Of a DNA stretch of 64,000 nucleotides, positions 18,189 to 38,431 are shown one piece after another. Position 1 is the first letter of the stretch. The number at the start of each line of letters is the position of its first letter. This DNA is from an uncultured Anaeromyxobacter sp. (lineage in GTDB: Bacteria; Myxococcota; Myxococcia; Myxococcales; Anaeromyxobacteraceae), in the NCBI GenBank assembly GCA_903904005.1, contig CAIVAR010000037.1, positions 1 to 64,000 of the forward strand. The letters run 5' to 3'. A program made the translations under genes and the position numbers. The notes under the pieces were generated by a model. The model had not been told where the DNA came from and ran no database searches. It saw nothing but the letters and a program-made list of their open reading frames with translations.

Positions 18189-18238
18189 CACCTTCTCCGG
18201 TCGTCCCGTTCCCCCTCGGCTTCCCATCTCCCCCGGCC

Positions 18239-19156: not shown

Positions 19157-19334
19157 GGAGTGCGGGTACCTTTCGGGATGGCGCCCTACATAGCAAACAC
19201 GGGGCCACCCCATCCGGGGGCGCAAGTGCCCGATCTCTCCGGTTGCTTTTGGGTTCGTGGATCGAAGACCCACCCCCCTCGAGCGCAGATTATGCCGGTT
19301 CTCATAAAATGAATATGCAGGGTGGAAAATGACT

Positions 19335-20766: not shown

Positions 20767-21747
20767 CTACTTCAGGATCTGAGAATCCCCGGACGGGGCG
20801 CCCTCGATGGGTGCTGTCTTGGGAGGGGGCTCGACGATCGAGAGCACCTGCACGCGCCGATTTCCGGCCTCGGCCACGCAGAGCCGCCCCTTGCGATCGA
20901 CCGAGACGCCGACCGGGAAGACGACGTCACCGGGGTTGGGACCGAGCCCTCCGAACCGGTCGATGAACCGCCCGTCGGCCTCGTAGTACTTGATCTCCTG
21001 CCGCATCTTGTCGATGAGGATGACCCGGCCCTTGGGGTCGACCGCGACCGAGGCGGGCAGGGAGACGTTGTGGAGCCCGGCCTCGTGGGAGCCCCAGCCC
21101 CGGAGGAAGCGCCCGTACTTGGTGAAGACCTGGACGGCGATCCCCTCCTGGTCGGCCACGTAGATGTTCTCGGCGTCGACCGCGATCCCCACGATGCTGG
21201 TGAACTGACCCTTGCCCTGCCCCTTCTTCCCGAAGCGGGTTCGGACCTTGCGGTCCGGACCGAAGACGTGGACCTGGCCGTTCTTCGACTCCCCCACGTA
21301 GAGGTTCCCGTCGGCGTCGAGGGCGATGGCCCCGACCTGGATCTCCTGGTCGGGACCGAGGCCGGGGAGTTCGAGGAACGAGAGGAACTCGCCGCGGTAG
21401 TTGAAGACCTTGATGCGCCGGAAGTCGTTGTCGAGGACGTAGAGGTTGCCCTCCCGGTCGGCGATCACCTGCCTGGGTTCCCGGAGCCTGTCGCTCCGGA
21501 AGCTGTAGAGGGGCGATCCCTTCTCGTCGAAGATGGCGATGGCGTTCAACCCCGGGTCGGCGACCAGGATCTCGCCGCTCACCGGATCGCAGAAGACACC
21601 ACCCACGGTGAGGAACTGTCCGTCGTAGAGGTGGCCGTAGATGAGCACCTCCGGCGTGAGGTCGACGACCGAGCGGTCGGCGAACTCCACGCGCGGCGCG
21701 ACCGGCGGCGCGGCGAGGAGCAACGAGAGTGCCGCCCCGAGGATCAC
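20767..21747 (-). CDS. NHL-repeat beta-propeller protein, secreted
   Basis: The 326-residue protein begins with a hydrophobic export signal and is filled with NHL-type propeller blades of about 45 residues. Examples are REPRQVIADREGNLYVLD, VGAIALDADGNLYVGES, VGIAVDAENIYVADQE, ASVAVDPKGRVILID and VGVSVDRKGRLCVAEAGN, enough for a six-bladed propeller. Such domains are protein-interaction platforms. The GTG start (21747) lies one base after the stop of the 42-haem cytochrome gene, so the two are translationally coupled and probably form a complex. NHL proteins often accompany multiheme cytochrome genes in Geobacter-type bacteria. Confidence 0.9.
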   Translation of the reverse strand: MILGAALSLLLAAPPVAPRVEFADRSVVDLTPEVLIYGHLYDGQFLTVGGVFCDPVSGEILVADPGLNAIAIFDEKGSPLYSFRSDRLREPRQVIADREGNLYVLDNDFRRIKVFNYRGEFLSFLELPGLGPDQEIQVGAIALDADGNLYVGESKNGQVHVFGPDRKVRTRFGKKGQGKGQFTSIVGIAVDAENIYVADQEGIAVQVFTKYGRFLRGWGSHEAGLHNVSLPASVAVDPKGRVILIDKMRQEIKYYEADGRFIDRFGGLGPNPGDVVFPVGVSVDRKGRLCVAEAGNRRVQVLSIVEPPPKTAPIEGAPSGDSQILK

Positions 21748-21748
21748 G

Positions 21749-24700
21749 TCACTTCCTGCCCGGAGCGCCCTTCTTCTGCGGGGCGCCCTTGGTCTTCGTG
21801 GAGGAGGGGTCGTGGCACTGGACGCAGAGCCCCTGGGTGGGATTCCCCTGCAGGATCATCACGTGCTGCGAGCCGTGGGGCACGTGGCAAGAGAGGCACT
21901 GCATCCCCTTCCCGGTGCGCGGGTCGATCACGTTGGCGCCGATGGGGTGGCCGAACTGGGCGTGACCGGAGTGGCACTTGCTGCAGAGGGTGGCGCCGTC
22001 GCGGGCCAGGAGCGCCGGTCGCGGGCTCTGGTGCGGATCGTGGCAGATGCTGCACTTGCCCCGCTCCGCCTTCACCGGGTGGATCGACTGGGAGACATTG
22101 AGGAGCTGGTCGATCTGGGAGTGGCAGGCGAGGCAGCGATCCCGCTCCCGCCCGGCCACGAGCCCCTTGCCGTCGGCCGCATGGGGGGTGTGGCAGGAGA
22201 GGCAGTCGGACTTGGCGGCCGCGTGGGCGCCGGGCTTCTGCAGGGCCACGCGCTTGTCGCCGTGGCAGCGGAAGCAGAGGGCCGGCCCCTTGGCCACGAG
22301 CGCCTGGGGATTGGCCCCGCTCGCCACGTGGCACTTGTTGCAGGTGGCGAAGACCTTGTGCGGGCTCGAGCGGATGAGCCCCTTCTGCGAGGAGCCGTGC
22401 GGGTTGTGGCAGCTCATGCAGTCGGCCTTGGCCACCGGGAATCCCTGGTGGGCCGCCTGGATCTTCTTGCCCTTGGGATCGTGGCACTTCGTGCAGAGCC
22501 GGCCGGTGTCGGACACGAGCTGGTAGGGCGTGTTCGACGCGTGCGGGTCGTGGCAGGTGGCGCACTTCCCCGACTTGAATGGCGCGTGGACCACCTTGGC
22601 CTTCTGAAGCTCCTTCTCCCGCTCGTGGCAGCCGAAGCAGAGCGAGGTGCCGGTGCGCACCAGGCCGTCCGGGGCGTCCGAGGCGTGCGGCGCGTGGCAC
22701 TCGGTGCACTTCCCCTCGCGGACCGGGGTGTGGACCGAGCTCTTCGCGAAGGCGGCCTGCTCCTTCACGTGGCACCCGAAGCAGAGGGCGGCCCCGGTGC
22801 GCGGGAGCAGGTGCTCGTTCTTCGCGGCGTGGGGGTCGTGGCACTGCGGGCAGGCCCCCTTCTTCACCGGTGCGTGGACGTTCGAGCCGGCCAGGATCTT
22901 GTCCAGGTCGGAGTGGCAGGTGGCGCAGAGCGCGCGCCCGTCGGCCACGAAGGTCTTCTGGAGCTTGCCGGGGGTCCCGTTGTGGCAGGCCGAGCAGTCC
23001 CCCTGCGCGAAGGGGGAGTGGGTGTTGGAACGGACGAGCCCCTTCTTGCGGGTGGCGTGGGGGTCGTGGCAGGTGGCGCAGCTCTTCCCGCCCGGGACGA
23101 GGCCGCCGTGAGCCTTGGTCAGCTCGGCGGAGGCCGCGTCGTGGCAGGTGAGGCAGAGCTTCTCGGGTGCGTCGGACAGCAGCCCGGGGCGGCTGGAGCC
23201 ATGCCCCGCGTGGCAGGTCGAGCAGTCTCCGGCCTTCACCGGCGCGTGGACCACCGCCCCCTTCACGCTGAGCTTCTCCCCGAACTTCTCGTGGCAGCCG
23301 AGGCAGAGCTCCTTCGACTGGCGCTTGAGGAGCTTGGCGCCACCGCCGTGCGGATCGTGGCACTCGGTGCAGAGGCCGGCGCGGAAAGGCTGGTGGGAGG
23401 TGGGGTCGGCCTGCTTCTTGGCCACGTCGTGGCAGGAGCCGCAGACCTCCGACAGGTCCCCCTTGAGGAGCCAGGGGCGGGCGCTGGCGTGGGGAACGTG
23501 GCAGGTGTCGCAGGCGCCGCCCTCGAGGGCGGCGTGGAGCTTCCGGCCGGCGTCGACCTTCACGATCCGTTCGTGGCAGGAGGTGCAGAGCTTCTCGGGG
23601 GGCTTCGAGATGAGCCCCTTCTGCTCCCCGGCGTGCGGGTCGTGGCAGCCCGTGCAGTTCCCGTCGGCCACCGGCTTGTGGACGTGGATCTTGGCGAAGT
23701 CCTCCCTCGCCTTCTCGTGGCAGGAGAGGCAGAGCTCCTTCATGGGCTGCACGAGGAGCTTGGCGTTGCCGCTCCCGTGCGGGTCGTGGCACTTCGCGCA
23801 CTGGCCGTCCCGGACCGGCGGGTGGGCCACCTTCGCCTGTGCCCAGGCCCCCTTCTGCTTCTCGTGGCAGGTGTAGCAGAGGGCCGCGCCCGGCCTGGCG
23901 AGCAGCCTGGCGTTGTCCGAGCCGTGGGGCTGGTGGCAGCCGCTGCAGCGCCCCGTCTCGGCGGGCTGGTGCTTCGACTTCGACGTCCCGAGCCTGGAGA
24001 CCACCGGCTCGTGGCAGTCGCCGCAGATGGCCCGCTGCGACCGGGCCAGCATGCCCTTCCCGTCGCCGGCGTGCGGCGAGTGGCAGGTGGTGCAATCACC
24101 CGCGGGCGGGTGGGCCACCGGGCGCTTGAGATCCGCCTCGCGGTCGGCGTGGCAGTCGGTGCAGAGCCCGGGCTGGGCCTTCGACACGGCGAAGGGCTTG
24201 GCCGAGCCGGCGGCGGCGTGGCAGGAGGCGCAGTCGGCACCGACCGGATGGGACACCTTGCGGAGCCCCTGCTTCGAATCGGATGCGTGCGGGCTGTGGC
24301 AGGAGAGGCAGGGCGTGCCGGTGACCGGGTAGCCGGCGTGGACCTTGGCGAGCGCGGCCCCGTCGCCGTGACAGCGGGCACACAGGGCGGCCGGCGCGTG
24401 CTTGAGGAGGTTGGCCTGTGCCGACGCGTGCACGTCGTGGCACTCGGCGCAGCTCTTCGCGGCGGGTGCGTGGACCACCTTGCCCTGGAAGTCGGCCTCC
24501 TTGTGGCACTTGAAGCAGGCGGCGCTGCCGGTGGCCCGGGTGAGCTTGGGGTGAGCGGAGGCGTGGGGCTCGTGGCAGGAGGTGCACTTCTCGGTCTTGA
24601 GCGGCGCGTGCTGGTGCGCCTGCGCAAAGGACTTCTCCTCCTTCTGGTGGCAGGAGTAGCAGAGCTTGGGCTCCTCCTCCTTCAGCGCCAGGCTGCCCAC

Positions 24701-24937
24701 GATCCCGTGCCGCTTGTGGCAGGACTCGCAGCCGTCGGCCTTCTCGAAGGGGGCGTGGACGAACTTCCGCGACTGTTGCTCGAGGGTCTTCTTGTGGCAC
24801 TCGGCGCAGGGCTTGGCGGCGAAGCGTCCGGTCTGCGCGAGCGCCGCACCGGGGAGGAGCAGCAAGGCGCCCGCAAGGAGGAGGGCCAGGCGCGCCACGG
24901 CCGGCCGACGAATCGAATCGCTCTTCGCTCGCATCAT
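21749..24937 (-). CDS. 42-haem c-type cytochrome, doubled-CXXCH type
   Basis: I count 42 CxxCH motifs in about 1,062 residues, one per 25 residues, after a signal peptide ending near GAALAQ. Most come in pairs of the doubled-CXXCH type, with the second motif followed by DPH, SPH or EPH (CHDPHG, CHSPHA). Free His between them could serve as distal ligands. The C-terminal tail is Lys/Pro rich. There is no lipobox, so it should be periplasmic or secreted. Of two adjacent ATGs (24937, 24934) either is possible after GGGGG. The long regular array suits a wire bridging the periplasm; pairing with the coupled NHL protein supports a complex. Confidence 0.93.
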   Translation of the reverse strand: MMRAKSDSIRRPAVARLALLLAGALLLLPGAALAQTGRFAAKPCAECHKKTLEQQSRKFVHAPFEKADGCESCHKRHGIVGSLALKEEEPKLCYSCHQKEEKSFAQAHQHAPLKTEKCTSCHEPHASAHPKLTRATGSAACFKCHKEADFQGKVVHAPAAKSCAECHDVHASAQANLLKHAPAALCARCHGDGAALAKVHAGYPVTGTPCLSCHSPHASDSKQGLRKVSHPVGADCASCHAAAGSAKPFAVSKAQPGLCTDCHADREADLKRPVAHPPAGDCTTCHSPHAGDGKGMLARSQRAICGDCHEPVVSRLGTSKSKHQPAETGRCSGCHQPHGSDNARLLARPGAALCYTCHEKQKGAWAQAKVAHPPVRDGQCAKCHDPHGSGNAKLLVQPMKELCLSCHEKAREDFAKIHVHKPVADGNCTGCHDPHAGEQKGLISKPPEKLCTSCHERIVKVDAGRKLHAALEGGACDTCHVPHASARPWLLKGDLSEVCGSCHDVAKKQADPTSHQPFRAGLCTECHDPHGGGAKLLKRQSKELCLGCHEKFGEKLSVKGAVVHAPVKAGDCSTCHAGHGSSRPGLLSDAPEKLCLTCHDAASAELTKAHGGLVPGGKSCATCHDPHATRKKGLVRSNTHSPFAQGDCSACHNGTPGKLQKTFVADGRALCATCHSDLDKILAGSNVHAPVKKGACPQCHDPHAAKNEHLLPRTGAALCFGCHVKEQAAFAKSSVHTPVREGKCTECHAPHASDAPDGLVRTGTSLCFGCHEREKELQKAKVVHAPFKSGKCATCHDPHASNTPYQLVSDTGRLCTKCHDPKGKKIQAAHQGFPVAKADCMSCHNPHGSSQKGLIRSSPHKVFATCNKCHVASGANPQALVAKGPALCFRCHGDKRVALQKPGAHAAAKSDCLSCHTPHAADGKGLVAGRERDRCLACHSQIDQLLNVSQSIHPVKAERGKCSICHDPHQSPRPALLARDGATLCSKCHSGHAQFGHPIGANVIDPRTGKGMQCLSCHVPHGSQHVMILQGNPTQGLCVQCHDPSSTKTKGAPQKKGAPGRK

Positions 24938-25159: not shown

Positions 25160-26782
25160 TCAGGGATGGCCGGGGGGCGCCTTTCCCGCCGGGGGATGAC
25201 CCGGGGGAGCGACCTCGATCGCCTTCACGACCTTCTCGTCGATGCCGACCTTCGCCACCTTGCGGAGGACCTCGACCCGTGCACGGATCGACCGGAAGGC
25301 CGCCTCGTCCCGCTCCTGCATGGAGAGGACGTGCTTCACCTCGGCAAACGTCTTCTGACGAGCGGGCTGGGCGGCCGCGCAGGAGAGCACCTCCCACCCG
25401 GCCTTCGTCTTGACCGGTGCGGTGGGAGCACCCGGCGCGGCAGAGGTGAGTGCGGCGGCGAGCGCAGGCTCGGAGGTGCGCAGCTTCTCGAGGTCGGCCT
25501 CGGGGACGACGCCGAGGGAGCCCACACGCGTCCCGGCAGCCTTCGCGGGAGGGCTCTTCGCGACCGCATCGATCGATGCCCCGGCCACCACCTGCTCGCG
25601 GAGGGCCCGTGCCGCGCCCTCGTCCGGAGCGGTGATCCCCCAGCACGCGCGACCGGCGGGAACCTGGAACTCCTTCTGCCTGGCCTTGTAGGTGGCCTCG
25701 AGCTGCGCGTCGGTGGGGGCGGGGACGCCCTTGCGGATCCGGGCCACCTCGGCGGCGGCGAGTGCACCCCGCTCGGCGCGCCACCCCGCGGCGACGGCCT
25801 CCGGCGCCTTGTCGAATCCGGCGTCGCGCGCGGCCTTCTCCAGGACCGCGCGCGTGAGGAGCCGCTGGGCGATGCGCTCCTTCAGCTCCGCCGTCGCGCC
25901 CCCGCCACCCTTGGGCATCGTCGCCTGCTTGATCGCCTCGATCACCTCGCCGTAAGTGATCTTGATCTTGCCGGCGGTGGCCACCGCCCTCCCCTTCTCC
26001 TTGCCGCCGGGATCGAGCGCGCCTCCGGTCGACTGGAGGAAGGCCGTGTCGACCTTGGCGCCCGAGCGCTGGAGCAGGTCGTCGACGAACTGCCGGGCGC
26101 CCTTCTCGCGCCGCTCCTCGACCAGGCGGGGGCGCGCCTCGTCCTTCATGGTCATGAGGGTCATCTCGTCGGCCGGCTTCTTCTCCTCCACCCGCGCGAC
26201 GGCGAACCCTCCCTCCACGGCGAAGGGGCCGAGCAGCTGTCCGGTCGGCGCGGCGCCGAGCTCCTCCGAGAGCGCCTGCCCCATGCCACCGACGGACATC
26301 CACCCCAGCGAGCCGGATCGCGAGCGGGTGAACTCATCGACGGATCCCTTCGCCTCCTGCTGGAAGGTCGCGCCTGCCTTGATCCGGTCGAGCGCGCCCT
26401 GGGCCTGCTCCCGGGTGGGCAGGATCACCATCGAGACGCGGACCTTGTCCTCCTCGGCGTGCAGCGCACGCAGGACGTCGGCGTCGGTCATCGTGATCCG
26501 GGAGGTGACGTCGCGCGCGACGAGGAGCTCGACGGCGGCGCGCCCGCGGTCGTTCCGGGCGCGCTCGGCCACCTCGGCCGGGACCTTCTTCCCCTCCCGC
26601 CGGGCCGCGTCGGCCAGCAGGGTCTCTCCGATCAGATCGTCGAGGGCGATGGGGACGGTGGCACTCGCGCCTCGGGCCCGGGAGGCCACCTCGCCGGCGG
26701 TCACCACGTGCGTGTCCACGCGTGCGGCCACGGCATCCGGCGCCGCCGCCGAGAGGAGGAGAACGAGAAGGCTCGACACCAT
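25160..26782 (-). CDS. secreted parvulin-type peptidyl-prolyl isomerase, two rotamase domains
   Basis: This 540-residue SurA/PpiD-like foldase has a signal sequence (SSLLVLLLSAAAPDAVA) and a SurA-N helical region. A first parvulin-like domain at about residues 110-215 contains GSLGWMSVGGMGQAL and GPFAVEGGFAVARVEE. A second, degenerate one at about 375-475 contains GSLGVVPEADLE and KAGWEVLSC. Unlike the parvulin at 11034-12944 it has no lipobox. It lies between the trihaem and the 42-haem cytochrome genes on the same strand. A dedicated role in maturing extracytoplasmic cytochromes is likely from position but not shown. Confidence 0.87.
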   Translation of the reverse strand: MVSSLLVLLLSAAAPDAVAARVDTHVVTAGEVASRARGASATVPIALDDLIGETLLADAARREGKKVPAEVAERARNDRGRAAVELLVARDVTSRITMTDADVLRALHAEEDKVRVSMVILPTREQAQGALDRIKAGATFQQEAKGSVDEFTRSRSGSLGWMSVGGMGQALSEELGAAPTGQLLGPFAVEGGFAVARVEEKKPADEMTLMTMKDEARPRLVEERREKGARQFVDDLLQRSGAKVDTAFLQSTGGALDPGGKEKGRAVATAGKIKITYGEVIEAIKQATMPKGGGGATAELKERIAQRLLTRAVLEKAARDAGFDKAPEAVAAGWRAERGALAAAEVARIRKGVPAPTDAQLEATYKARQKEFQVPAGRACWGITAPDEGAARALREQVVAGASIDAVAKSPPAKAAGTRVGSLGVVPEADLEKLRTSEPALAAALTSAAPGAPTAPVKTKAGWEVLSCAAAQPARQKTFAEVKHVLSMQERDEAAFRSIRARVEVLRKVAKVGIDEKVVKAIEVAPPGHPPAGKAPPGHP

Positions 26783-26861: not shown

Positions 26862-27425
26862 TCAAACCCCCATCAGGTGGCAGGCGCTGCAGAGAGCCGT
26901 CGAGTCGGTCCGGGCAGACTTCGGCAGGGCGCCGGAGGCGACCCCCATGGCCACCGCCTGCTCCGCTCGCCAGGAGTAGCCCGAACCCGTGGTCGATCCC
27001 GCCGGAACCTGGGGGATGACCAGCCTGTAAGTCATGGTTGACTGACCGTCATGACAGGTGACGCAGGTGATGGCGCCGCCCGGGAGCAGGAGGCCGCGGC
27101 GGACCACGTCGTCCGCGGAGCGCATCGAGGAGCCGACCCCGGGACGGGAGGCGACACGGGCGCGAACCGGCACGTCGACCGGATGCATGCGGTGCAGCTG
27201 CGTCCCTGCCCCGCCCGCGCCGTGGCAGGAGAGGCAGTCCTGCGTCGTGGCCGTCTGGGAGCCCGCATCGAGGAGCTTGCACTTCACCGCCGCCTCGGTA
27301 CCGGTCGCGGCGGCGGTCGTCCCGCCGGCCCTGTGGGTACCTGTGGGCACGACGAGGTCGCTGTACGCGGAGGGGGCTGCGGCGACCAGGGCGAGCGACA
27401 CGGCGGCGGCGATCGGGGCGAGCAT
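26862..27425 (-). CDS. trihaem c-type cytochrome
   Basis: The 187-residue secreted protein has a signal peptide (cleavage near AAPSAYS) and three CxxCH motifs: CLSCHGAGG, CVTCHDG and CSACH close to the C terminus. A pair HRMHPV after the first site may supply distal His ligands. It starts at the ATG at 27425. It may be a small periplasmic shuttle serving the larger cytochromes on either side, with 79 bases to the parvulin gene and 204 bases to the 19-haem gene. Confidence 0.88.
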   Translation of the reverse strand: MLAPIAAAVSLALVAAAPSAYSDLVVPTGTHRAGGTTAAATGTEAAVKCKLLDAGSQTATTQDCLSCHGAGGAGTQLHRMHPVDVPVRARVASRPGVGSSMRSADDVVRRGLLLPGGAITCVTCHDGQSTMTYRLVIPQVPAGSTTGSGYSWRAEQAVAMGVASGALPKSARTDSTALCSACHLMGV

Positions 27426-27629: not shown

Positions 27630-29684
27630 CTAGTAGTGGCAGCTCGTGCAGGCGGAGTTGAGCGTGGGATCGACCCGGTCGATGACCCCGTTCAGGTGCT
27701 TCGCGGTGCTCGTGAAGGAGGTCCCCAGCGCATCGACTCCCGGGTGGCACACGTTGCAGCTGTTGCGGTTGGCGGCCGAGGACCCTCCGTGGGACCCGCT
27801 GTGCCAGGGGCCTGCCAGCAGCCCCTTCGCGATCTCGTGGCAGGAGGTGCAGGTCATCGCCGGCCCCGTCCAGGCCGGGGTTCCGTTCTTCCCTGCGTAC
27901 GGCTGCAGGATGGTTCCGCCGGTGAAGGGGTCGAACCCCTGGTACGTCCCCGAGTAGCCGCCGTGGCAGTAGGTGCTCGCACAGGTCAGGACCGTCCCGT
28001 TCCAGGTCGGCTTCGCCCCTCCGGCAACCGCCACCCCGCTCCACGCCACCGTGGCCCGCGAGCCGTCCAGGTGGCCGGCCGAGAGCGCATTGGCTGGGTT
28101 CACGTGGCACGCCGAGCAGGCGAACGCGGGTGCGATCGTCCCGGCGACGACGTGCTTCGTGTGGGCGCCGATGCGCGCGACGTCGGTACGGAAGCCCCAG
28201 GTGCCCTTGGGCGGCGCTCCGGTGGCGTTGCTCGTTCCGCCGTGGCAGAGCGTGCAGGTGGTCTTCCAGGTGGCCCCGTGGCAGGTGGCGCAGGAGGTCG
28301 TCGCCGTCCCGCCCACGCCGTCCAGGTTCACGCCGTGGCAACCCTGGCAGGAGGAGATCCCGGCGTTCGCGTCGAACGCGTGGAAGTCCGGGCTCGCGGC
28401 GTCCATCCACCCCGTCACGTGGGCGCTGGCGGTGGTGGTGGCCTGGATCGCCCCGTCGAGGTGCTTGCCGCCGGAGGCGATCGGGATGAGGGCGCCGCTC
28501 GCGTTCATGGTCTCCGGGTGGCAGCTCGCGCAGGTGTTGAGGGCGGCGCTGACCACCGGGTGGGTCCCGCCGGGCGGGTTCCCGTGGCAGGTGCCGCAGG
28601 CCGCCGCGCCCAGGCCGACCTGCGTCCAGACGACGCTGGCGTCGGTCCCGTTCGCGAAGTTGCCGTGGCAGTAGGTGCCGGAGCAGGTGGCGCTGGTGCG
28701 CGTCCAGGTCGGGGCCGCTCCACGGGCCACGGCGAGGCCGCTCCAGGTGACGTTGGCGGTCGGCAACCCGTCGATGTGACCAGCGGAGAGCACGTCGGCC
28801 GGCCTCACGTGGCAATCCGTGCAGGCGACGGCGGGCGAGGTGGCGGTCCCGGCCAGGTGGGTGGCGTGGGCGCCGACGCGGACCGTGTCGGCCGAGTTGC
28901 CCCAGGTGGTCTTGGGCGGCGCACCGGTCTGGTTGCCGTTCCCGCCGTGGCACATGATGCAGTTCACCTTCCAGCTCGCCACCCCGACCGGCAGCGCGGC
29001 GTCGTGGCACTGGCCGCAGGAGACGGCCGCTGCGAGGCCGGTGAGCGCGGTCCCGTGACAGCCCTGGCAGCTCGCCAGCCCCTTGTTGGCCTCGATGGCG
29101 TGGAAGCCGGGGCTCGCCGTGTCCATCCAGGACGGGGCGTGGCCGATCAGGGTGACCGTCCCGCTGGTGTGGCTACCGGTGGTGTGGCACCGGGTGCAGT
29201 CGGCATCGACCGGGCGAGGGTTGGTGATGACCGGGTGCTGGGCCGGCAAGGTCGAGCTCACGTGGCAGGTGGCGCAGGCCTGGGGCCCGGCCGTCCACTC
29301 CACCGGCTTGAGCGGCCCGCCGAGCGGGCTGTGGCAGGCCACCGTGCAGGTGGTGGGATAGACGTCGATGGCCCGGACGAACGTGCCTCCCGCGGTCGTC
29401 GTCCCGCCCGGATAGGTGAACGGAACCGCGAAGCCGAACTCGCCACCGCACGGGTGGCAGGTCGCGCACCCCACCTGCAGGTCGATGTGCTTCGTGTGGA
29501 CGTCGGTCCCTCCGCACATCGGGCCGGCCAGGGCAGCGGCCGCGCCCTTCACGACGGCAGCGTTGGCGGGGGTCGGCTTCTGCCCGCTACATCCGGCCGT
29601 GGTGACCGCGAGGGCGACCGCGAGGGCGATCCAGGCGACCCGCTTGCCCGGCACGATGGCAGTCATTTCGTTCTCGTAGTTCAT
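27630..29684 (-). CDS. 19-haem lipoprotein cytochrome (CxxxxCH/CxxCH type)
   Basis: The protein of about 684 residues has a lipoprotein signal (lipobox TAGC). I count 16 CxxCH, one CX3CH (CTVACH) and two CX4CH (CSGTYCH, CASTYCH), in total 19 putative haem sites. The CX4CH followed by CxxCH spacing is the Geobacter-type GSu_C4xC__C2xCH repeat. Two halves repeat: each has a MDxASPxFHA segment, SCQGCHG and an NxTGAPPKxTWG segment. The start ATG (29684) follows GAGG at long spacing and lies 14 bases after the giant cytochrome stop, so the two genes are co-transcribed. Its N-terminal third resembles the beginning of the giant protein, which suggests common descent. Confidence 0.92.
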   Translation of the reverse strand: MNYENEMTAIVPGKRVAWIALAVALAVTTAGCSGQKPTPANAAVVKGAAAALAGPMCGGTDVHTKHIDLQVGCATCHPCGGEFGFAVPFTYPGGTTTAGGTFVRAIDVYPTTCTVACHSPLGGPLKPVEWTAGPQACATCHVSSTLPAQHPVITNPRPVDADCTRCHTTGSHTSGTVTLIGHAPSWMDTASPGFHAIEANKGLASCQGCHGTALTGLAAAVSCGQCHDAALPVGVASWKVNCIMCHGGNGNQTGAPPKTTWGNSADTVRVGAHATHLAGTATSPAVACTDCHVRPADVLSAGHIDGLPTANVTWSGLAVARGAAPTWTRTSATCSGTYCHGNFANGTDASVVWTQVGLGAAACGTCHGNPPGGTHPVVSAALNTCASCHPETMNASGALIPIASGGKHLDGAIQATTTASAHVTGWMDAASPDFHAFDANAGISSCQGCHGVNLDGVGGTATTSCATCHGATWKTTCTLCHGGTSNATGAPPKGTWGFRTDVARIGAHTKHVVAGTIAPAFACSACHVNPANALSAGHLDGSRATVAWSGVAVAGGAKPTWNGTVLTCASTYCHGGYSGTYQGFDPFTGGTILQPYAGKNGTPAWTGPAMTCTSCHEIAKGLLAGPWHSGSHGGSSAANRNSCNVCHPGVDALGTSFTSTAKHLNGVIDRVDPTLNSACTSCHY

Positions 29685-29698
29685 GGTGTCGCCGCGCC

Positions 29699-32600
29699 TC
29701 AGTGTCCGGTTCCGTTGCAACCGCAGTTCGACTGCGCCCACGCCGAGGTGTTGCTCGTCGGGTAGGTGAGGAGGTACAGCCGGCCCGACGTCCCGCCCTG
29801 CCAGTACGGGGCGACGGTGTCCCAGCCGGCGATCGTGCCTCCGACCGCCGCCGCCGCTCCGGCGCCTGCGGCGAGAATGCCGGGGCGCGGACCGCCGTGC
29901 GGCACCGCCGCGTGGCAGTTCATGCAGGCGATGTTGTGCTTGCCGTTGGTGTGGGCCGTGAACCGTCCGCCCACGAAGTCGGTCCGGTGGCAGTTGGCGC
30001 AGAAGGTTCCGGTGGGCATGCCGCTGGTTCCGCCGATGGCGATCGTGCTGTTCCAGGTGGTGTTCGGCCCCTTCAGGAGGAACTTCGCGGCCGACCCGTG
30101 CGGTCCGTTGGGGTCGGTGGCCGCGTCGGAGTCATGGCAGTCGGTGCACTGCATGAGCGTCGTCCGGGAGAAGGGCGGCAGGATGTTGCCGGTGGCGCCC
30201 AGGTTCCCGTTGGCAGTGGCGAGCACCGGGTGGAAGCCGCCGGCCGTCTCGTTGGTCTGCCAGCTCGTCGTTCCCGTCGTGGCGTAGTTGCCGACGTTGG
30301 CCGGGTTGAACTCCTTGGCCACGTCGCTCCCCTGCATGACCTGGATGGTGTAGGCGCCGGTCCAGGCCGCCGTCGCCGCCGGGGCGATGGTGATCGACGT
30401 GGCGCTGCCGACCGCGGTGATGCGGTGCCAGATGCCGAGCGTGTTGTTCTTGATGACCGCGCCGACCATCGTCGCGGACCAGGCGGTGCCGGCGCCGGTG
30501 ACGGTGGTCGAGGTCGCGGTGGCCGAGTACGGCGCGGTGGCCGTGCCGGTCGCGTACGTGAAGGTGGACGGGGCCTGCATGGTGTAGGCGCCCGTCCACG
30601 CGGCGGTGGCGGCGGGGCTGATGGTGAGCGACGTCGTGCTCGCCACGGCGGTGACGGTGTGGGTCACCCCGACCGTGTTGTTCCTGATGGTCCAGCCCAC
30701 GTTCACGGCGTTCCAGGCGGTGCTCGTCCCGGTGACGGTGGTCCCGTTCAGGGCGGCGACCGCCGTGCCCGTCGTGTAGGTCGGAGCAGCCGACGGGAAG
30801 GCCGGCGGCGCGCCCGTGCCCCAGTAGTAGCCGGTGTGGCACTTGAAGCAGAGCGTCGCCTCGAGGCTCGTGGCGGTGAGCGTCTGCTTCGTGAAGTTGC
30901 CGGTGGCGGGCGTGGTCCAGAAGGCCGGGTTGCTCGAGAGCTGCGCGCCCCAGGAGCCCACGATGGCCGGACCGGCGACGTTACCCGCGCGGTAGTACTG
31001 GCGGATCGCGTAGGCGCTGCCCGAGGCGACCGCCGTGGTCGGGCGCGGGTAGACGACCATCGAGGTCGCGCTGGTGAAGGTGACGACCGTGTAGGTGGCC
31101 GTGCCCACCTGCAGCTTCCTGCCGACCATGGCGCTCGTCCAGGTGGTGCCGACGCCGGTGGCCGTGCCGCAGCTCCCGCTGCCCATCGTCGACGGGCAGG
31201 TCCCGGAGGTGGAGATGGCGACCGTTCCGGTGGTGTAGGGCGCCGGATCCACCGTGGCCTGGGCCGCGTGCGGATCGTGGCAGTCGTTGCAGCTCGCGTG
31301 GCGCTGGCCGGCGCCGGCGGCGACGCCGAAGGCGTTGCCGAAGGCGGCGGTGCCCGCCTCGAGGCCGCTGTCGTGGACGGTGTCCGCGAGCGACGGGTGG
31401 CCCGACTGGCCGGGCGACGTGGCGTGCAGGAGCTGGGTCTGGATGTCCTTGCCGGAGCGGTTGCCCTGGGCGCCGGCGGCGGGCGACGTCGTCGACCCGT
31501 GGCAGTTGAAGCAGACGAAGCTGGCTGCCACCCCGCCGGGGTTGGACGTGCCGGCGAGCAGGTGGGCGTCGTCGGTCGAGAAGTGGACCGACTGCGTCGT
31601 GGTGGCCGTGGGCGTGGTGCCCTCCGTGCGGCTCGCGTGGCACTTCGTGCAGTTGCGGGCGAACGTGCTCCCGTCGTGGATCGGGAAGGTCCAGGTCCAG
31701 GTGGGGGTCGTCGCCGGGAACTGCGTGAAGTCGTGGGCCGAGGCACCGAACGTGGCGGCCGTGATGGTCATGTGGTTCGTCGTGATCGGCGTCTTGTGGC
31801 AGCTCGTGCAGACACCCGCGTTCGTGGCCGGATCGAAGTCGGTCTTCGCCCGGTTGGCGGTGGTGCGGGTGGTCGAGCCGCTGGCGCGCGTCGCCGACGT
31901 GGTCGCGTCGACGTAGACGTTGGTCTCGTGCGTCGTCGTGGTCGGCGTCGTCAGGTTGTGCGGGTGATCACCGTGGCACATGGACACGCAGGTCCGGTCG
32001 GCGGTGGCCGGGACGGCCGTGAGGAGGGTCGTCGAGGCCCCCCAGTTCGCGGTGGTGTCCGCCGGGACGTCGCTTCCGATCCCATGCCGGGACTTCGGGA
32101 CCGAGGTGACCGCCGTCATCTGGTTGAAGAACGTCGCGTGGCAGCCGCCGCAGCTCGAGCCACCGGTGGCCGGCTCGCCGCCGCCGTCGAGGACGCCGTT
32201 GATGTGCTTGCCGCCGGCGACGTTGATGCTGCCGGTGGGGTTGACGGTGTCGGGGTGGCAGGTGGCGCAGGCCGTTGCGCTCGCAGCCACGTTGGTGTGG
32301 CCGCCGGTGGTGGGCGGGAAGCCGTGGCAGCTGCCACAGGTCACGGCCGCGCCGTTCCAGGTCCAGCTGGTGACGGACCCGGCGTAGCCGGCCGCCAGCG
32401 TGGCGCCGTGGCAGTAGGTCGAGCAGGTGGTCTGGGTCGTGCTGCCGTTGCCGACCGTGACCGTGGCCGTCGCCGGGGCGACGAAGTCCAGCCTGGCCGC
32501 GGTGGCGAGCGCGAAGCTGACGTCGCGGGAGTTGTTGGAGTGGGCGTTGTTGCCGGCGTTGTTCGGGTGGCACTCGGTGCAGGCGATGGGCTTGTAGATC

Positions 32601-35600
32601 GCCCCCACCGCGGCCGGGTTCACGTGGCCGGCGTGGACGCCGACCCGGACGCCGGTGGTGGCGCCGAGCGAGTCCTTCGGCGGCGCCGAGGCCTGGTTGG
32701 CGTCGGCTCCGGCCACGCTCACGCGTGTTCCGTCGCCGTGGCAGGAGGTGCAGGTGAGGGCGTCGATCTGGACCGAGCCGTTCAGGTGGTTCGCCAGGTT
32801 GACGCTGCTGATGGTGTAGCCGGTGTGGCAACTCTGGCAGGCGTTGCTCGCCGGGTGCGTGCCACCGGGGGGCAGCCCGTGGCAGGTGCCGCAGGCCGCG
32901 GCGGCGGCGCCGCCGAGCCAGGACGGGGCGTAGGTCGTCGCGCCGTTCTTGAAGTTGCCGTGGCAGTAGGTGTTGGAGCAGGTGCCGGCCACGTTGCCGG
33001 CCGCGGCGGTGGTGCTCCCCGCGTAGGCGGCGGTGGTGATGGCGGGGGTACCGGTGACCGAGAGGCCCGAGAAGGCCACGGTGGCGCGGGCGCCGCCGGT
33101 GCCGGCGCCCGTGGCGTGCGCCGTGTCGCCCGAGCCGGGGACCGCGTGGCAGGCGCTGCAGGCGATGGGCGTGCTGCTCAACGTCGAGCCGTTCAGGTGC
33201 TTGGCGTGGGCGCCGACCGCGGCGAACGTGGCGGCGACGTTGCCGGCCGTGTCGGCCGACGCGGCGTTGAAGCCGGGGGCCACCGCGCCGGAGGTCGCGG
33301 CGACGGCGGTCTGGGTGAGGTCACCGTGGCAGAGCGTGCAGCCGGTGCGCGTCAGGGTGACGGTGCCGTCGACGTGCGTACCCTGGACGACCGCCGCCGT
33401 GGTGTACCCGGTGCCGTGACAGGTGGCGCACGCGGTGTTCGCCGGGTGGTGCGAGGCGGCCGTGAGGGCGGGCGGGTTGCCGTGGCAGGAGGTGCAGGCG
33501 AGGGCCGCCGCGGTCTTCCAGCTGGCCGTCGCGGCGCCGCCGGCGCCGCCGGCGAAGTTGCCGTGGCAGTAGGTGTTGGAGCAGGTTCCCCCGTTGCCCG
33601 CGTAGGTCGCGGTCGTGATGGCGCCGGTGGTGGCGAGGTTGGCGAGGGTGACCGCGCCGGCCGTGGCGGCGCCGGTCTTGTGGATCGGGGTCGAGACGGC
33701 GCCGTGGCAGGCGTTGCACTGGACTGGACGGGACCGGGTGCCGAGGACGTGAGCGGCGTGGACGCCGACGCCGTTGGCGGTGGCGATGGCGGTGTTGCCG
33801 AAGGTGTCCGGAGCGCCCGTGCCAGTGGGCGCGGCGGCGACGTTCGGGTCCTGCAGGCCGCTGGCGACGAGGGTCGCGTTGCCGTGGCAGGTGGTGCAGG
33901 AGAGCGTGGAGGTGTTGATGGCGCCGTTCACGTGGAGGCCGCCGGCGACGACGACCGCTCCGGCCGCGTCCACGACTCCGGCGTGGCACTTCACGCAGGT
34001 GGTGAGCGCGGCGGCGTTGTGGTGGTTGGCGGTGCCGGGAGGCGACTTGTGGCAGCTGCCGCAGTCGGCGACGGCGCCGTTCCAGGACCAGGTGGCGACC
34101 GAGCCGCGGGTGGTCGTCACGTCGAGCGTCGCGCCGTGGCAGTAGGTGGCGCAGGTGGTCGCCGTGGTGGTGCCGTTCCCGAGGACGAAGCCGGCCGCGT
34201 AGTTGCCCAGCTTGGCGGCGGTCGCAGCGGCGAAGGTGACGTCGCGCACCGCGTTGCCGTGGGCGGAGTTCCCGGCGTGGTTCGGGTGGCACTCGGTGCA
34301 GGCGATCGGCTTGTAGACCGCGCCGGCCGCGGCCGGGTTGGAGTGGGCGACATGGGTGCCGACGCGCACGCCGGTGGCGGCGCCCAGGCTGTCGAGCGGA
34401 GGCGCGGAGGCCTGGTTGAGGTCCGCGCCGGCGACGCTGACGCGGCCGGTGGTGCCGTGGCAGGAGGTGCAGGACATGTTGGAGAGGTCGACGGCGCCGT
34501 CGACGTGTCCCGCGGGGTTGACGATGGACTGGGTGGCGTTGCTGTAGTTGCCGTGGCAGTTGCCGCAGGTGGCGAGCGTCGAGCCCTGGGGGTGGGTTCC
34601 GCCGGGAGGATTGCCGTGGCAGGAGCCGCAGGTGGCGGTCCCGCTCCAGGTGATCGCGTTCACCCCGACGCCGTTCTTGAAGTTGCCGTGGCAGTAGGTG
34701 TTGGAGCAGGTCCCGGTGGCCGCCGTGTACGTCGGCGTGACGGTGCCGGTCTTGGCGAGGGTACCGAAGGCGACATTGGGCTGGCCGTTGGCGTGGAGCG
34801 GCGTGGCAGGGATGACGGCGTTGTGGCACTCGGCGCAGGTCACCTGCTTCGACCAGGTGGGGCCGCCGGCGGCGCCGGTGAGCAGGTGCTTCACGTGGGC
34901 GCCGACCTTGGCGCCGGTCGTGGCGTTGGAAGCGTCGACCGGGGGAGCGGACGAGAGGGCGACGAGATCGGCGTCCGTCCCGGTCCGGCCCGGCGTGCCG
35001 TGGCACGACGTGCAGGTCTGGGCGACGTAGTCGACGACGCCGTTCACGTGGGTGGTGGCGTTGACGGTGGTGCCGGTGTAGCCGGTGTGGCAGGTGCCGC
35101 AATCGGAGCGGTTCGGGTGGGTGCGCCCCGTGGAGGTCGCGGAGGGCGGCATGCCGTGGCAGGAGTTGCAGGCCAGCGCCCCGGCGGTCTTCCAGGAGAG
35201 CGTCACGTTGGTGGCGCCGACGCCGCCGCCCAGGTTGCCGTGGCAGTAGGTGTTGGAGCAGGTGCCGCCCGCGCCGGCGTAGGTCGCGGTGGTGATGGCG
35301 CCGGTGGTGGCGAGGTTGCCGAGCGCGACCGCTCCGGCCGTCGCGGCACCGGTCTTGTGGATCTGCTGCGTCGGGACGGCGTGGCAGGCGTTGCAGAGCA
35401 CCGGCTTCGAACGGACCGGCAGGACGTGGGCCGCGTGGACGCCGACACCGTTGGCGGTGGCGACGGCGGTGTTGCCAAAGGTGTCGGGAGCGCCGACGCC
35501 GGTGGGCGCGGCGGCGACGTTCGGATCCTGCGCGCCGGAGGCGACGAGGGTCGCGTTGCCGTGGCAGGTGTTGCAGGCGAGGGTCGAGGTGTTGACGGCG

Positions 35601-38431
35601 CCGTTCACGTGCAGGCCGCCGGCGACGACGACCGCTCCGGCCGCGTCCACGACACCGGCGTGGCACTTCACGCAGGTGGTGAGCGCGGCGGCGTTGTGGT
35701 GGTTGGCGGTGCCGGGAGGCGACTTGTGGCAGCTGCCGCAATCGGCAGCCGCGCCGTTCCACGACCAGGTGGCGACCGAACCGCGGGTGGTCGTCGCGTT
35801 GAGCGACGAGCCGTGGCAGTAGGTGGCGCAGGTGGTCTGCGTCGTCGTTCCGTTGCCCTGGACGAAGGTCGGGGCGTACGAGCCAAGGTTCGCCGCGGTG
35901 GCGGTCGCGAAGGAGACGTTCACGGCGCTGTTCGAGTGGCTGATGTTGCCGGTGTTGTCCGGGTGGCACTCGTTGCAGGCGATGGGCTTGTAGACCGCGC
36001 CGACCGCAGCCGGGTTCACGTGGGACACGTGCGTGCCGACCCGGACGCCCGTGGCCGCGCCGAGGGAATCGTTCGGGGGAGCCGAGGCCTGGTTCACGTC
36101 GGCGCCGGCCACGCTCACCCGGGCCGCGGTTCCGTGGCAGGAGGTGCAGGTCATGTTCGCGACGTCGACCGCGCCGTTCATGTGGGCCGTGGGGTTGACG
36201 GTGGTCGAGGTGTAGCCCGTGTGGCAGGTCGCGCAGGTGGTGGCGTTCACCGGATGGGTGCCGCCCGGGGGCAGGCCATGGCAGGAGCCGCAGGCCGCGG
36301 CGGCGGCGCCGCCCAGCCAGGAGGGGGCGAGCGTCGTCGCACCGTTCTTGAAGTTGCCGTGGCAGTAGGTGTTGGAGCAGGTGCCGGCGACGTTGCCGGC
36401 CGCCGCGGTGGTGCTTCCCGCGTAGGCCGCCGTGGCGATGCTGCCGGTCCGGGCCAGGGTTCCGAAGGCGACGGTGGCACGCCCGCCACCCGTGCCGGTG
36501 CCCGTGGCGTGGGCCACGTCGGCGGTGCCGGGGACGACGTGGCACTCGGCGCAGGCGATCGGCGCCGAGCGCCAGCGCGTGCCGGTGAGGTGCGCCGCGT
36601 GGGCGCCGACGGCGGCGAAGGTGGCGGAGACGTTGCCGGCCGTGTCGGCGGCGTTCGCGCCGTAGCCCGGGGCGGCCAGGGCGGAGGTGGCTGCGACGCC
36701 AGTCTGGGTCAGGTCGCCGTGGCAGAGGGTGCAGCCGGTGCGGCTCACCTTGACGGCGCCGTCGACGTGGGTGGCCTGGACCACCGTGGCCGACGAGTAG
36801 CCGACGCCGTGGCAAGCCGCGCAGTTGGCGTTGGCCGGGTGGTGCGAGGCCGCGGAGAGCGCCGGGGGGTTGCCGTGGCAGGAGGTGCAGGCGAGCGCTC
36901 CGGCCGGCGACGTCCAGACCGGCGAGGTGGGGGCGCCGCTGCCGCCGGGGAAGTTGCCGTGGCAGTAAGTGGCGCTGCAGGAGCCGCCCGAGCCGACGAC
37001 GTAGCCCGCGGTCGCACCGGCGATGGGGGAGAACCCGACGTCCACGAAGCCGTCGGCGTGGGCGTAGAAGCCGTTCATGAACGACGACCACGGGTGGCAG
37101 TCGGTGCAAAGGAGGTTCTTCGAGCGCGTGCCGTTGGTATGAGCCACGTGTGCGCCTACGCCGCGTGCGCTGGTCGCGGTATTGAGCGACGTGTCGCGAG
37201 GCGGTGCGGCGGCGGTCTCGTCGGTGAAGGAGGTCGGGTTGGGAACCCGGCCCGGGGTCCCGTGACAGCTCGAGCAGGTCACGCCGGCGCTCAGGTCGGC
37301 GGCGCCGTTCTGGTGCTTGCCGCCGGGGATGATGGCGCCGGCCGAGGTCACGGTGTCACCGTGGCACTGGACGCAGGTGGTGATGCCGCCGACCACCGTC
37401 TTGTGACGCGGGTTGGCGGGGGGCGCGCCGTGGCAGAGCCCACAGCTGGTGGGGCCGAGGGCGAACTGGACCGTCCCGTCGATGTGTGTCGCGGAGGCTG
37501 CGGTGGTCGCGGTGAAGCCCGCGTGGCAGGCGCCGCAGTCGGCGCTCTGGGCGTGCGGGGGCGGCGGCGGGGCCCCGTGGCAGGAGCCACAGGCGATCTG
37601 GGAACCGTCGGTGGTCGTCCAGATCGGGTTCTTGGCCGTACCGCCCGGCAGCGTCATGCCGTGGCAGTAGGTGTTGGAGCAGGTCGCCGTCCCGCGCGTC
37701 CACGCTGCGGTGGTCGTGCCCTGCACGGCCACGCCGGAGAAGGCCACCTCCGCGGTACCGTCGTCGATGTGACCCGCGGCGAGCGCGTCGCCCGGGATGG
37801 CGTGGCAGGAACTGCACGTGACCGGAGCCGCGAGGCCATGGGTCGCACCGACGTGGGCCGCGTGTGCCCCGATGCGCACGGTGTCCGCCGAATTGCCCCA
37901 GGTCGCCTTGGGGGGCGCGCCGGTCTGGTTCGCGGTGCCGCCGTGGCACATCACGCAGTTGGTCTTCCAGCTGGTGACGCCGGCCGGCAGCGCGGCGTCG
38001 TGGCACTGCGCGCAGGAGGTCTTGGCGGAGCCGCCGACGCCGTCGAGCGCTGCCCCGTGGCAGGCTTGGCACTTGGCGATCCCGGTGTTGACCGAGTAGG
38101 CGTGGAATCCCGGGCTCGCGGAGTCCATCCAGCCCGCCAGGTGGCCGGTCGTCGCCTTGGTACCGCAGGGGTGGCAGGTCTCGCAGGACGTCGTGCCGTA
38201 CATCTCGTGCCCGAGGCGAGGGGCACACGTGCCACCCGTGGCCGCGGCCGCGGCGAGTACGGACGGCTTGGGCGCCGAGGTGGCCCGAGCGGGGCTCGTC
38301 AACGGCGTCGGCGCCCTCCCCACGTCGGCGCGGTCCGTCGGCGTCGGGACGTTTCCGCAACCCGCCGTGCTCGTCGTCGCGACGATGGCGACCACGAACG
38401 CAATCCAGCCTACACGAGCGAAGAGCCCCAC
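29699..38431 (-). CDS. giant 65-haem lipoprotein cytochrome (2,910 aa)
   Basis: The GTG start follows AGGAGGGG at ideal spacing. A lipoprotein signal ends in TAGC (lipobox), so the protein should be anchored in the outer membrane, possibly exposed at the surface. I count 65 putative haem sites: 54 CxxCH, 7 CX4CH (mostly CSNTYCH) and 4 CX3CH (CATYCH twice, CSTYCH, CVSMCH). Most of the length is a Gly/Ala/Thr-rich array of GSu_C4xC__C2xCH-type units. Residues about 685-2140 are almost three copies of a 15-haem unit. Three haem-free beta-rich repeats lie at about 2402-2474 and 2550-2695. Codon use matches the neighbours. A perfect FNR-type box lies about 100 bases upstream. Its place as head of the cytochrome run suggests a terminal surface reductase or conductive scaffold; this is inferred. 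Confidence 0.93.
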   Translation of the reverse strand: MGLFARVGWIAFVVAIVATTSTAGCGNVPTPTDRADVGRAPTPLTSPARATSAPKPSVLAAAAATGGTCAPRLGHEMYGTTSCETCHPCGTKATTGHLAGWMDSASPGFHAYSVNTGIAKCQACHGAALDGVGGSAKTSCAQCHDAALPAGVTSWKTNCVMCHGGTANQTGAPPKATWGNSADTVRIGAHAAHVGATHGLAAPVTCSSCHAIPGDALAAGHIDDGTAEVAFSGVAVQGTTTAAWTRGTATCSNTYCHGMTLPGGTAKNPIWTTTDGSQIACGSCHGAPPPPPHAQSADCGACHAGFTATTAASATHIDGTVQFALGPTSCGLCHGAPPANPRHKTVVGGITTCVQCHGDTVTSAGAIIPGGKHQNGAADLSAGVTCSSCHGTPGRVPNPTSFTDETAAAPPRDTSLNTATSARGVGAHVAHTNGTRSKNLLCTDCHPWSSFMNGFYAHADGFVDVGFSPIAGATAGYVVGSGGSCSATYCHGNFPGGSGAPTSPVWTSPAGALACTSCHGNPPALSAASHHPANANCAACHGVGYSSATVVQATHVDGAVKVSRTGCTLCHGDLTQTGVAATSALAAPGYGANAADTAGNVSATFAAVGAHAAHLTGTRWRSAPIACAECHVVPGTADVAHATGTGTGGGRATVAFGTLARTGSIATAAYAGSTTAAAGNVAGTCSNTYCHGNFKNGATTLAPSWLGGAAAAACGSCHGLPPGGTHPVNATTCATCHTGYTSTTVNPTAHMNGAVDVANMTCTSCHGTAARVSVAGADVNQASAPPNDSLGAATGVRVGTHVSHVNPAAVGAVYKPIACNECHPDNTGNISHSNSAVNVSFATATAANLGSYAPTFVQGNGTTTQTTCATYCHGSSLNATTTRGSVATWSWNGAAADCGSCHKSPPGTANHHNAAALTTCVKCHAGVVDAAGAVVVAGGLHVNGAVNTSTLACNTCHGNATLVASGAQDPNVAAAPTGVGAPDTFGNTAVATANGVGVHAAHVLPVRSKPVLCNACHAVPTQQIHKTGAATAGAVALGNLATTGAITTATYAGAGGTCSNTYCHGNLGGGVGATNVTLSWKTAGALACNSCHGMPPSATSTGRTHPNRSDCGTCHTGYTGTTVNATTHVNGVVDYVAQTCTSCHGTPGRTGTDADLVALSSAPPVDASNATTGAKVGAHVKHLLTGAAGGPTWSKQVTCAECHNAVIPATPLHANGQPNVAFGTLAKTGTVTPTYTAATGTCSNTYCHGNFKNGVGVNAITWSGTATCGSCHGNPPGGTHPQGSTLATCGNCHGNYSNATQSIVNPAGHVDGAVDLSNMSCTSCHGTTGRVSVAGADLNQASAPPLDSLGAATGVRVGTHVAHSNPAAAGAVYKPIACTECHPNHAGNSAHGNAVRDVTFAAATAAKLGNYAAGFVLGNGTTTATTCATYCHGATLDVTTTRGSVATWSWNGAVADCGSCHKSPPGTANHHNAAALTTCVKCHAGVVDAAGAVVVAGGLHVNGAINTSTLSCTTCHGNATLVASGLQDPNVAAAPTGTGAPDTFGNTAIATANGVGVHAAHVLGTRSRPVQCNACHGAVSTPIHKTGAATAGAVTLANLATTGAITTATYAGNGGTCSNTYCHGNFAGGAGGAATASWKTAAALACTSCHGNPPALTAASHHPANTACATCHGTGYTTAAVVQGTHVDGTVTLTRTGCTLCHGDLTQTAVAATSGAVAPGFNAASADTAGNVAATFAAVGAHAKHLNGSTLSSTPIACSACHAVPGSGDTAHATGAGTGGARATVAFSGLSVTGTPAITTAAYAGSTTAAAGNVAGTCSNTYCHGNFKNGATTYAPSWLGGAAAAACGTCHGLPPGGTHPASNACQSCHTGYTISSVNLANHLNGSVQIDALTCTSCHGDGTRVSVAGADANQASAPPKDSLGATTGVRVGVHAGHVNPAAVGAIYKPIACTECHPNNAGNNAHSNNSRDVSFALATAARLDFVAPATATVTVGNGSTTQTTCSTYCHGATLAAGYAGSVTSWTWNGAAVTCGSCHGFPPTTGGHTNVAASATACATCHPDTVNPTGSINVAGGKHINGVLDGGGEPATGGSSCGGCHATFFNQMTAVTSVPKSRHGIGSDVPADTTANWGASTTLLTAVPATADRTCVSMCHGDHPHNLTTPTTTTHETNVYVDATTSATRASGSTTRTTANRAKTDFDPATNAGVCTSCHKTPITTNHMTITAATFGASAHDFTQFPATTPTWTWTFPIHDGSTFARNCTKCHASRTEGTTPTATTTQSVHFSTDDAHLLAGTSNPGGVAASFVCFNCHGSTTSPAAGAQGNRSGKDIQTQLLHATSPGQSGHPSLADTVHDSGLEAGTAAFGNAFGVAAGAGQRHASCNDCHDPHAAQATVDPAPYTTGTVAISTSGTCPSTMGSGSCGTATGVGTTWTSAMVGRKLQVGTATYTVVTFTSATSMVVYPRPTTAVASGSAYAIRQYYRAGNVAGPAIVGSWGAQLSSNPAFWTTPATGNFTKQTLTATSLEATLCFKCHTGYYWGTGAPPAFPSAAPTYTTGTAVAALNGTTVTGTSTAWNAVNVGWTIRNNTVGVTHTVTAVASTTSLTISPAATAAWTGAYTMQAPSTFTYATGTATAPYSATATSTTVTGAGTAWSATMVGAVIKNNTLGIWHRITAVGSATSITIAPAATAAWTGAYTIQVMQGSDVAKEFNPANVGNYATTGTTSWQTNETAGGFHPVLATANGNLGATGNILPPFSRTTLMQCTDCHDSDAATDPNGPHGSAAKFLLKGPNTTWNSTIAIGGTSGMPTGTFCANCHRTDFVGGRFTAHTNGKHNIACMNCHAAVPHGGPRPGILAAGAGAAAAVGGTIAGWDTVAPYWQGGTSGRLYLLTYPTSNTSAWAQSNCGCNGTGH
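32000..32980 (-). repeat. partial repeat unit C of the giant cytochrome
   Basis: From residue 1818 the first nine or so sites repeat units A and B (CSNTYCH, CGTCH, CQSCH, CTSCH, CTECH, CSTYCH, CGSCH, CATCH, CGGCH), including the RVSVAGADANQASAPP spacer. It then diverges into the C-terminal region. The left boundary is approximate. Confidence 0.75.
32981..34708 (-). repeat. 15-haem repeat unit B of the giant cytochrome
   Basis: The unit is 1,728 bp (about residues 1242-1817) with the same order of 15 sites as unit A, again beginning with CSNTYCH and including CATYCH, CVKCH and a second CSNTYCH. Over about 128 bases from 33941 I see only two differences from unit A (from 35618), which points to recent duplication or gene conversion. 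Confidence 0.85.
34709..36379 (-). repeat. 15-haem repeat unit A of the giant cytochrome
   Basis: The unit is 1,671 bp (about residues 685-1241) and starts at the first Cys codon of CSNTYCH. Site order is CSNTYCH, CGSCH, CATCH, CTSCH, CNECH, CATYCH, CGSCH, CVKCH, CNTCH, CNACH, CSNTYCH, CNSCH, CGTCH, CTSCH, CAECH. Parts are nearly identical to unit B at DNA level at an offset of 1,677 bp. Confidence 0.85.

Follow-up and report, generated by a model that had tools for sequence, protein, structure and literature searches.

We show here that an uncultured Anaeromyxobacter sp., from a group of metal reducers, carries a gene for a lipoprotein c-type cytochrome with 65 potential haem sites in one chain, located in a 64,000-nucleotide stretch of contig CAIVAR010000037.1 (the window). 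The existence of this gene, proposed in an initial annotation of the window, is confirmed. The encoded protein is a striking member of an already known kind of protein, and its interest lies in the modular array of variable length, the conserved decahaem end and the recurring conduit-type gene cluster. It is probably the outer-surface, extracellular arm of a porin-cytochrome conduit of the Anaeromyxobacteraceae that has been lengthened by block duplication. This reading is based on the cluster partners (a 19-haem lipoprotein, a 42-haem TIGR03508 protein, a PpiC-type isomerase, an NHL-repeat protein, a barrel candidate and an LpoB-like protein), on the pattern of motifs and ligands and on the conserved C-terminal module. 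Against it stand the low pLDDT of the array and C-terminal models, the lack of a family above cut-off for the barrel candidate and the Thr at position -3 of the lipobox.

Read directly, the frame comprises 2,910 codons without an internal stop, and 95% of its third codon positions are G or C. The GTG start has CCAGGAGGGGAACA upstream, with AGGAGG ending six bases before it, a strong ribosome site. Scanning for promoters and terminators gave no promoter-like site and one terminator-like site, compared with 4.9 expected. A plus-strand ORF of 2,996 aa lies opposite the gene and was rejected as a GC-rich mirror frame with zero haem motifs. An exact recount agrees with the initial annotation, which had listed 54 CX2CH, 4 CX3CH and 7 CX4CH motifs. 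Each of the 65 Cys-His dipeptides of the chain falls inside exactly one motif and no motifs overlap, hence the number is not inflated by double counting. Chance clustering was likewise ruled out, since 2,000 shuffles of the chain contained on average 0.33 CX2CH motifs (maximum 4) against the 54 found. Only seven of the 137 cysteines, among them the lipobox Cys, lie outside motifs. The calculated apo mass of 285.9 kDa is close to the earlier estimate of about 280 kDa plus haem, and the chain would reach ~326 kDa with 65 haems.

Table 1. Position of the 65-haem gene, its parts and the neighbouring genes in the window
Feature	Position	Strand	Remarks
65-haem lipoprotein c-type cytochrome gene	29699..38431	(-)	2,910 aa; coordinates include stop codon
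Signal peptide with lipobox TAGC, residues 1-25	38357..38431	(-)	From translation; Cys25 is the predicted lipidated residue
N-terminal module, residues 69-250, haem sites 1-5	37682..38227	(-)	Shares ~54% identity with a segment of the 19-haem lipoprotein
Array of ten TIGR01904-type units, residues 251-2085, haem sites 6-55	32177..37681	(-)	From motif layout and unit alignment
C-terminal decahaem module, residues 2086-2910, haem sites 56-65	29702..32176	(-)	Terminal sequence ...NCGCNGTGH; also conserved outside the family
Region of the C-terminal module that carries beta-rich inserts	30338..31240	(-)	AlphaFold2; confident parts are residues 2398-2477 and 2551-2698
19-haem lipoprotein cytochrome	27630..29684	(-)	14 nt downstream of the 65-haem gene; shared module family
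3-haem small cytochrome	26862..27425	(-)	Similar genes in related clusters
PpiC/SurA-type peptidyl-prolyl isomerase	25160..26782	(-)	
42-haem MtrA/DmsE-like cytochrome, paired CXXCH	21749..24937	(-)	Sec-type signal, without lipobox
NHL-repeat beta-propeller	20767..21747	(-)	
6-haem cytochrome	19394..20554	(-)	
6-haem cytochrome	18239..19213	(-)	
10-haem cytochrome, 9 CX2CH and 1 CX3CH	16824..18227	(-)	
Probable outer-membrane beta-barrel, 741 aa	14589..16814	(-)	No family above cut-off
LpoB/GNA1162-like protein	12941..14008	(-)	Similar genes in related clusters

Judged by its profile matches, the chain is a modular cytochrome of the TIGR01904/PF09698 (CxxxxCH/CxxCH) type. It scores 263.9 bits against TIGR01904 in 10 stretches (cut-off 27) and 94.2 bits against PF09698 (cut-off 21.7), with further matches to cytochrome c7/c3 and MtrC/MtrF domain II/IV profiles. 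Every unit of the array (Table 1) opens with CX4CH or CX3CH, and the first two sites lie 24-29 residues apart in all ten units. Unit 1 holds seven haem sites, units 2-9 five each and unit 10 three. Besides the five motifs, units 2-9 contain five or six extra His; five non-motif His align across the copies, so that a second His ligand is possible for each haem (bis-His). Over the whole chain there are 83 non-motif His for 65 haems, a sufficient supply of distal ligands. Three CX3CH sites of the array fall exactly at the CX4CH position of other units, which suggests that they are working haem sites one residue shorter. The fourth CX3CH site, CVSMCH, lies in the C-terminal module, and its Cys and His are invariant in twelve aligned sequences.

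This C-terminal module is conserved. In an alignment of 12 sequences (the 65-haem chain and eleven relatives) over the last 870 residues, Cys and His of the ten haem sites are invariant in all twelve, as are several additional His. Two non-motif Cys in the ending NCGC...GH (29702-29728) are also invariant in the family alignment. The aligned relatives comprise giant lipoproteins and 14-haem proteins (about 960-2,800 aa) with long non-haem N-terminal regions, and a 5-haem gene precedes several of the latter. When named genomes were scanned, the module turned up in Anaeromyxobacter oryzisoli SG63, A. terrae SG22 and several Anaeromyxobacteraceae assemblies, with more distant matches in Geomonas and other Geobacterales, Acidobacteriota, Nitrospirota, Elusimicrobiota, Zixibacteria and others. 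Geobacteraceae encode smaller chains of 24-33 haems that join CX4CH-bearing parts to the decahaem module. A single-contig genome (G005) encodes six large 14-haem proteins of about 1,800-2,800 aa related to the module (L042-L047), several of which adjoin a 5-haem gene. In the PDB, the C-terminal profile gave weak matches to reaction-centre cytochromes; these are probably driven by the motifs and were set aside. Found in several phyla and lacking a solved relative, the module offers a new and concrete subject for structural work.

AlphaFold2 gave no usable model of the array (mean pLDDT 31.7 for three units), and the model of the C-terminal module (mean pLDDT 47.3) is usable in the beta inserts only, where block pLDDT is about 52-91 and mostly above 70. 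The best fold match of these inserts is a chain of the Arthrobacter phage Bridgette (8eci; 39% identity over 80 columns, E 5e-3), a weak match that suggests a small beta domain shared with phage virion proteins. The inserts, as the sole confidently modelled part, together with this phage similarity and the long non-haem regions of the 14-haem relatives, would fit an adhesive, mineral-binding or scaffold protein in which the beta inserts bind surfaces and the haems provide local contact, not a continuous path. We consider such a function very unlikely, as the inserts are variable, with some or all of them absent from most relatives, while the haem sites are invariant.

The initial annotation had described a lipid-anchored protein, and the signal peptide is in agreement with this. 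By inspection the lipobox T-A-G-C occupies residues 22-25 and is unusual in its Thr at -3; the lipoboxes of homologues are ordinary (VAGC, VQGC, AAGC). Lipid anchoring is predicted. ResB-type cytochrome maturation genes are present in the genome. The protein is predicted to be loaded with haem and to reside at the outer membrane. Lipoproteins can stay on either leaflet, and we know of no surface-export signal for this one. The 65-haem protein might hence sit on the inner leaflet and act as a periplasm-filling relay to the barrel. This placement appears improbable to us, because the cluster already contains a soluble periplasmic candidate in the 42-haem protein and a chain of 2,910 residues is a large object for the periplasm.

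The 65-haem gene is the first of a same-strand cluster that extends from 38431 to 12941 and encodes 151 haem sites in total. As the initial annotation had noted, a 19-haem lipoprotein gene adjoins it, with a lipobox and 16 CX2CH, 1 CX3CH and 2 CX4CH motifs; the co-transcription claimed for the pair is suggested by their close spacing on one strand. Gaps of about 180-220 nt within the cluster make several transcripts possible. The very large haem inventory at the outer membrane that had been proposed is in fact larger than stated when the whole cluster with its 42-haem MtrA-like protein is counted; its outer-membrane location is a prediction. Estimated by DNA pattern, the genome contains 541 CX2CH matches against 149 in a reversed control, and with 136 CX2CH sites the cluster may account for about one third of all those in the genome. 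The 42-haem protein matches TIGR03508 (DmsE/MtrA family) in eight stretches. Its counterpart in relatives consists of adjacent genes of 26 and 16 haems, and in a Zixibacteria record (L119) it is again one gene. The barrel candidate reaches PF07642 with E 0.0019, below cut-off, has no NCBIfam match and found no match in a genome search of 24 relatives; weak, distant pairwise similarity connects it to proteins of 732-745 aa in the related clusters of two relatives. Two members of the same genus with the closest C-terminal relatives (G001 and G003) gave no match to it, so either barrel and giant cytochrome are not always kept together or these drafts miss the barrel. Overlapping gene sets recur in three further genomes (G007, G011 and G015, of which G011 is a single contig), next to 40-, 44/51- and 61-haem proteins and with a 19-haem lipoprotein.

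The haem number itself had been called extreme even among metal reducers. This holds in comparison with the 40-haem protein of A. dehalogenans 2CP-C, the largest haem number published for Anaeromyxobacter (PMC2330069), but not within the family or against archaea. Single chains of relatives contain 58, 61, 61, 62, 66 and 94 sites, among them frames of 2,679 aa with 61, 2,840 aa with 66 and 2,081 aa with 58 haems. The largest is a lipoprotein frame of 3,891 aa with 94 motifs (77 CX2CH, 2 CX3CH and 15 CX4CH) in a sister assembly, the uncultured Anaeromyxobacter MAG Ki1-2-7m_bin-406 (G003, L064:7866-19541). It adjoins a 48-haem frame that is cut by a contig end. The highest published count we found is 113, in cytochromes of Methanoperedenaceae (archaea) that also include one of 69 haems (PMC7082337). 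Thus, 65 is high, not singular; the first reading was right about the type of protein, modestly overstated its rarity and understated its context.

Array length varies among relatives from 27 to 94 haems with no obvious fixed target, and the array studied here bears traces of such changes. Units 4 and 7 share 87% identity, a value above that of either unit with any relative's unit, and the best partner of the other units is a unit of a relative or of a second giant gene in the same genome. The longest exact internal DNA repeat measures 86 nt, and its copies are spaced by 1,677 nt, equal to three units. The identity of units 4 and 7 and this three-unit spacing indicate an array reshaped by block duplication alongside a fixed C-terminal module. 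One unit of the second giant gene and unit 8 of the 65-haem gene share 91% identity. With 186 contigs the source genome is a draft, and contig ends (L033 = G000:C94 and L035 = G000:C103) break the second giant gene. A draft of this kind could have merged two paralogues or collapsed or expanded repeats, in which case the true haem number would differ or two genes would exist, and identical tandem repeats longer than the reads would collapse unseen. We give little weight to such an artefact. Ordinary short reads could resolve a repeat of 86 nt, although longer identical ones would escape notice; the reading frame and the spacing of the motifs are unbroken throughout, with no sign of frameshift or repeat collapse in the sequence of this draft. 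Relatives also carry single frames of 61, 66 and 58 haems; 58-haem chains occur in G011 and G020, and because the one in G011 is uninterrupted in a single-contig genome, size alone is no hint of an assembly error.

In the proposed conduit, electrons of the quinone pool would travel through the periplasmic 42-haem MtrA-like protein, traverse the outer membrane within the 741-aa barrel and arrive at the 19-haem and 65-haem lipoproteins. They would leave through the bis-His haem chain to an extracellular acceptor, which may be Fe(III) or Mn(IV) oxide, humics or a partner cell. Whole five-haem units and three-unit blocks are duplicated as the array grows and shrinks, with the ten-haem C-terminal module kept constant. 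A more specific idea, which we put forward tentatively and regard as less probable than not, is a single-chain, lipid-tethered wire of genetically set length. About ten bis-His pentahaem units would lie in line over tens of nm, end in the conserved decahaem tip and be retuned by duplication of 15-haem blocks, as an alternative to polymerised nanowires. OmcS spans 48 angstrom per 6 haems (PMC6584659) and OmcZ 58 angstrom per 8 haems (PMC9473688); at this spacing (~7-8 angstrom per haem) 65 haems would extend over ~47-52 nm when fully stretched. The haems might instead mainly store charge, 65 electrons per chain, during brief shortage of acceptor and contribute little to transfer over distance. 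Charge storage has been proposed for the A. dehalogenans 40-haem cytochrome (PMC2330069) and for PCC3 cytochromes (PMC10734462), and a variation from 27 to 94 haems would be tolerable for storage. This role seems unlikely as the main one, since the conserved C-terminal module, the lipid anchor and the conduit-type neighbours point to directed transfer and charge can be stored without a surface lipoprotein; the two functions are not exclusive. If the conduit reading is true, extracellular acceptors would be reached by covalent haem arrays of evolvable length, not by assembled filaments. Natural homologues, which range from 27 to 94 haems in steps of whole units, would then offer a direct handle on the question of distance versus storage.

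Several known systems resemble the one described here in part. The TIGR01904/PF09698 'GSu_C4xC__C2xCH' cytochromes of Geobacter and relatives share the CX4CH...CX2CH pair in each unit, but the 65-haem chain unites ten units and carries, as a separate C-terminal part, a ten-haem module not covered by these models. By description, the 40-haem cytochrome of A. dehalogenans 2CP-C (PMC2330069) is likewise a giant multihaem protein of the same bacterial family, with 40 sites compared to 65. The 113- and 69-haem cytochromes of Methanoperedenaceae (PMC7082337) are similar by their very high count per chain; they are archaeal and have been discussed with S-layer fusions, not as bacterial lipoproteins. 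The Pcc system OmbB-OmaB-OmcB of Geobacter (PMC4245776) follows the same logic of barrel, periplasmic and surface cytochrome, whereas the two-gene pcc of Anaeromyxobacter (PMC4245776) combines a porin with a 12-14-haem periplasmic cytochrome and has no surface cytochrome. The PCC3 clusters of iron oxidisers (PMC5566968, PMC10734462) encode a porin, periplasmic cytochromes of 21-27 haems and extracellular cytochromes of 10-35 haems; the cluster here has 42 and 65+19 haems. Its large periplasmic and surface candidates match the PCC3 arrangement as predicted from their signals (42-haem protein without, 65- and 19-haem proteins with lipobox), and a counterpart of the conserved inner-membrane PCC3 protein of ~300 aa was not noted among the cluster genes examined. 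Sequence relation to the nanowire cytochromes OmcS, OmcE and OmcZ was not found, and chain and repeat profile had no match in a PDB sequence search. The proposed conduction path is nevertheless alike, as OmcS and OmcZ filaments (PMC6584659, PMC9473688) also rely on a closely packed chain of bis-His c haems. The filaments are polymers of 6- or 8-haem monomers, while here the haems would sit in one covalent, lipid-tethered chain.
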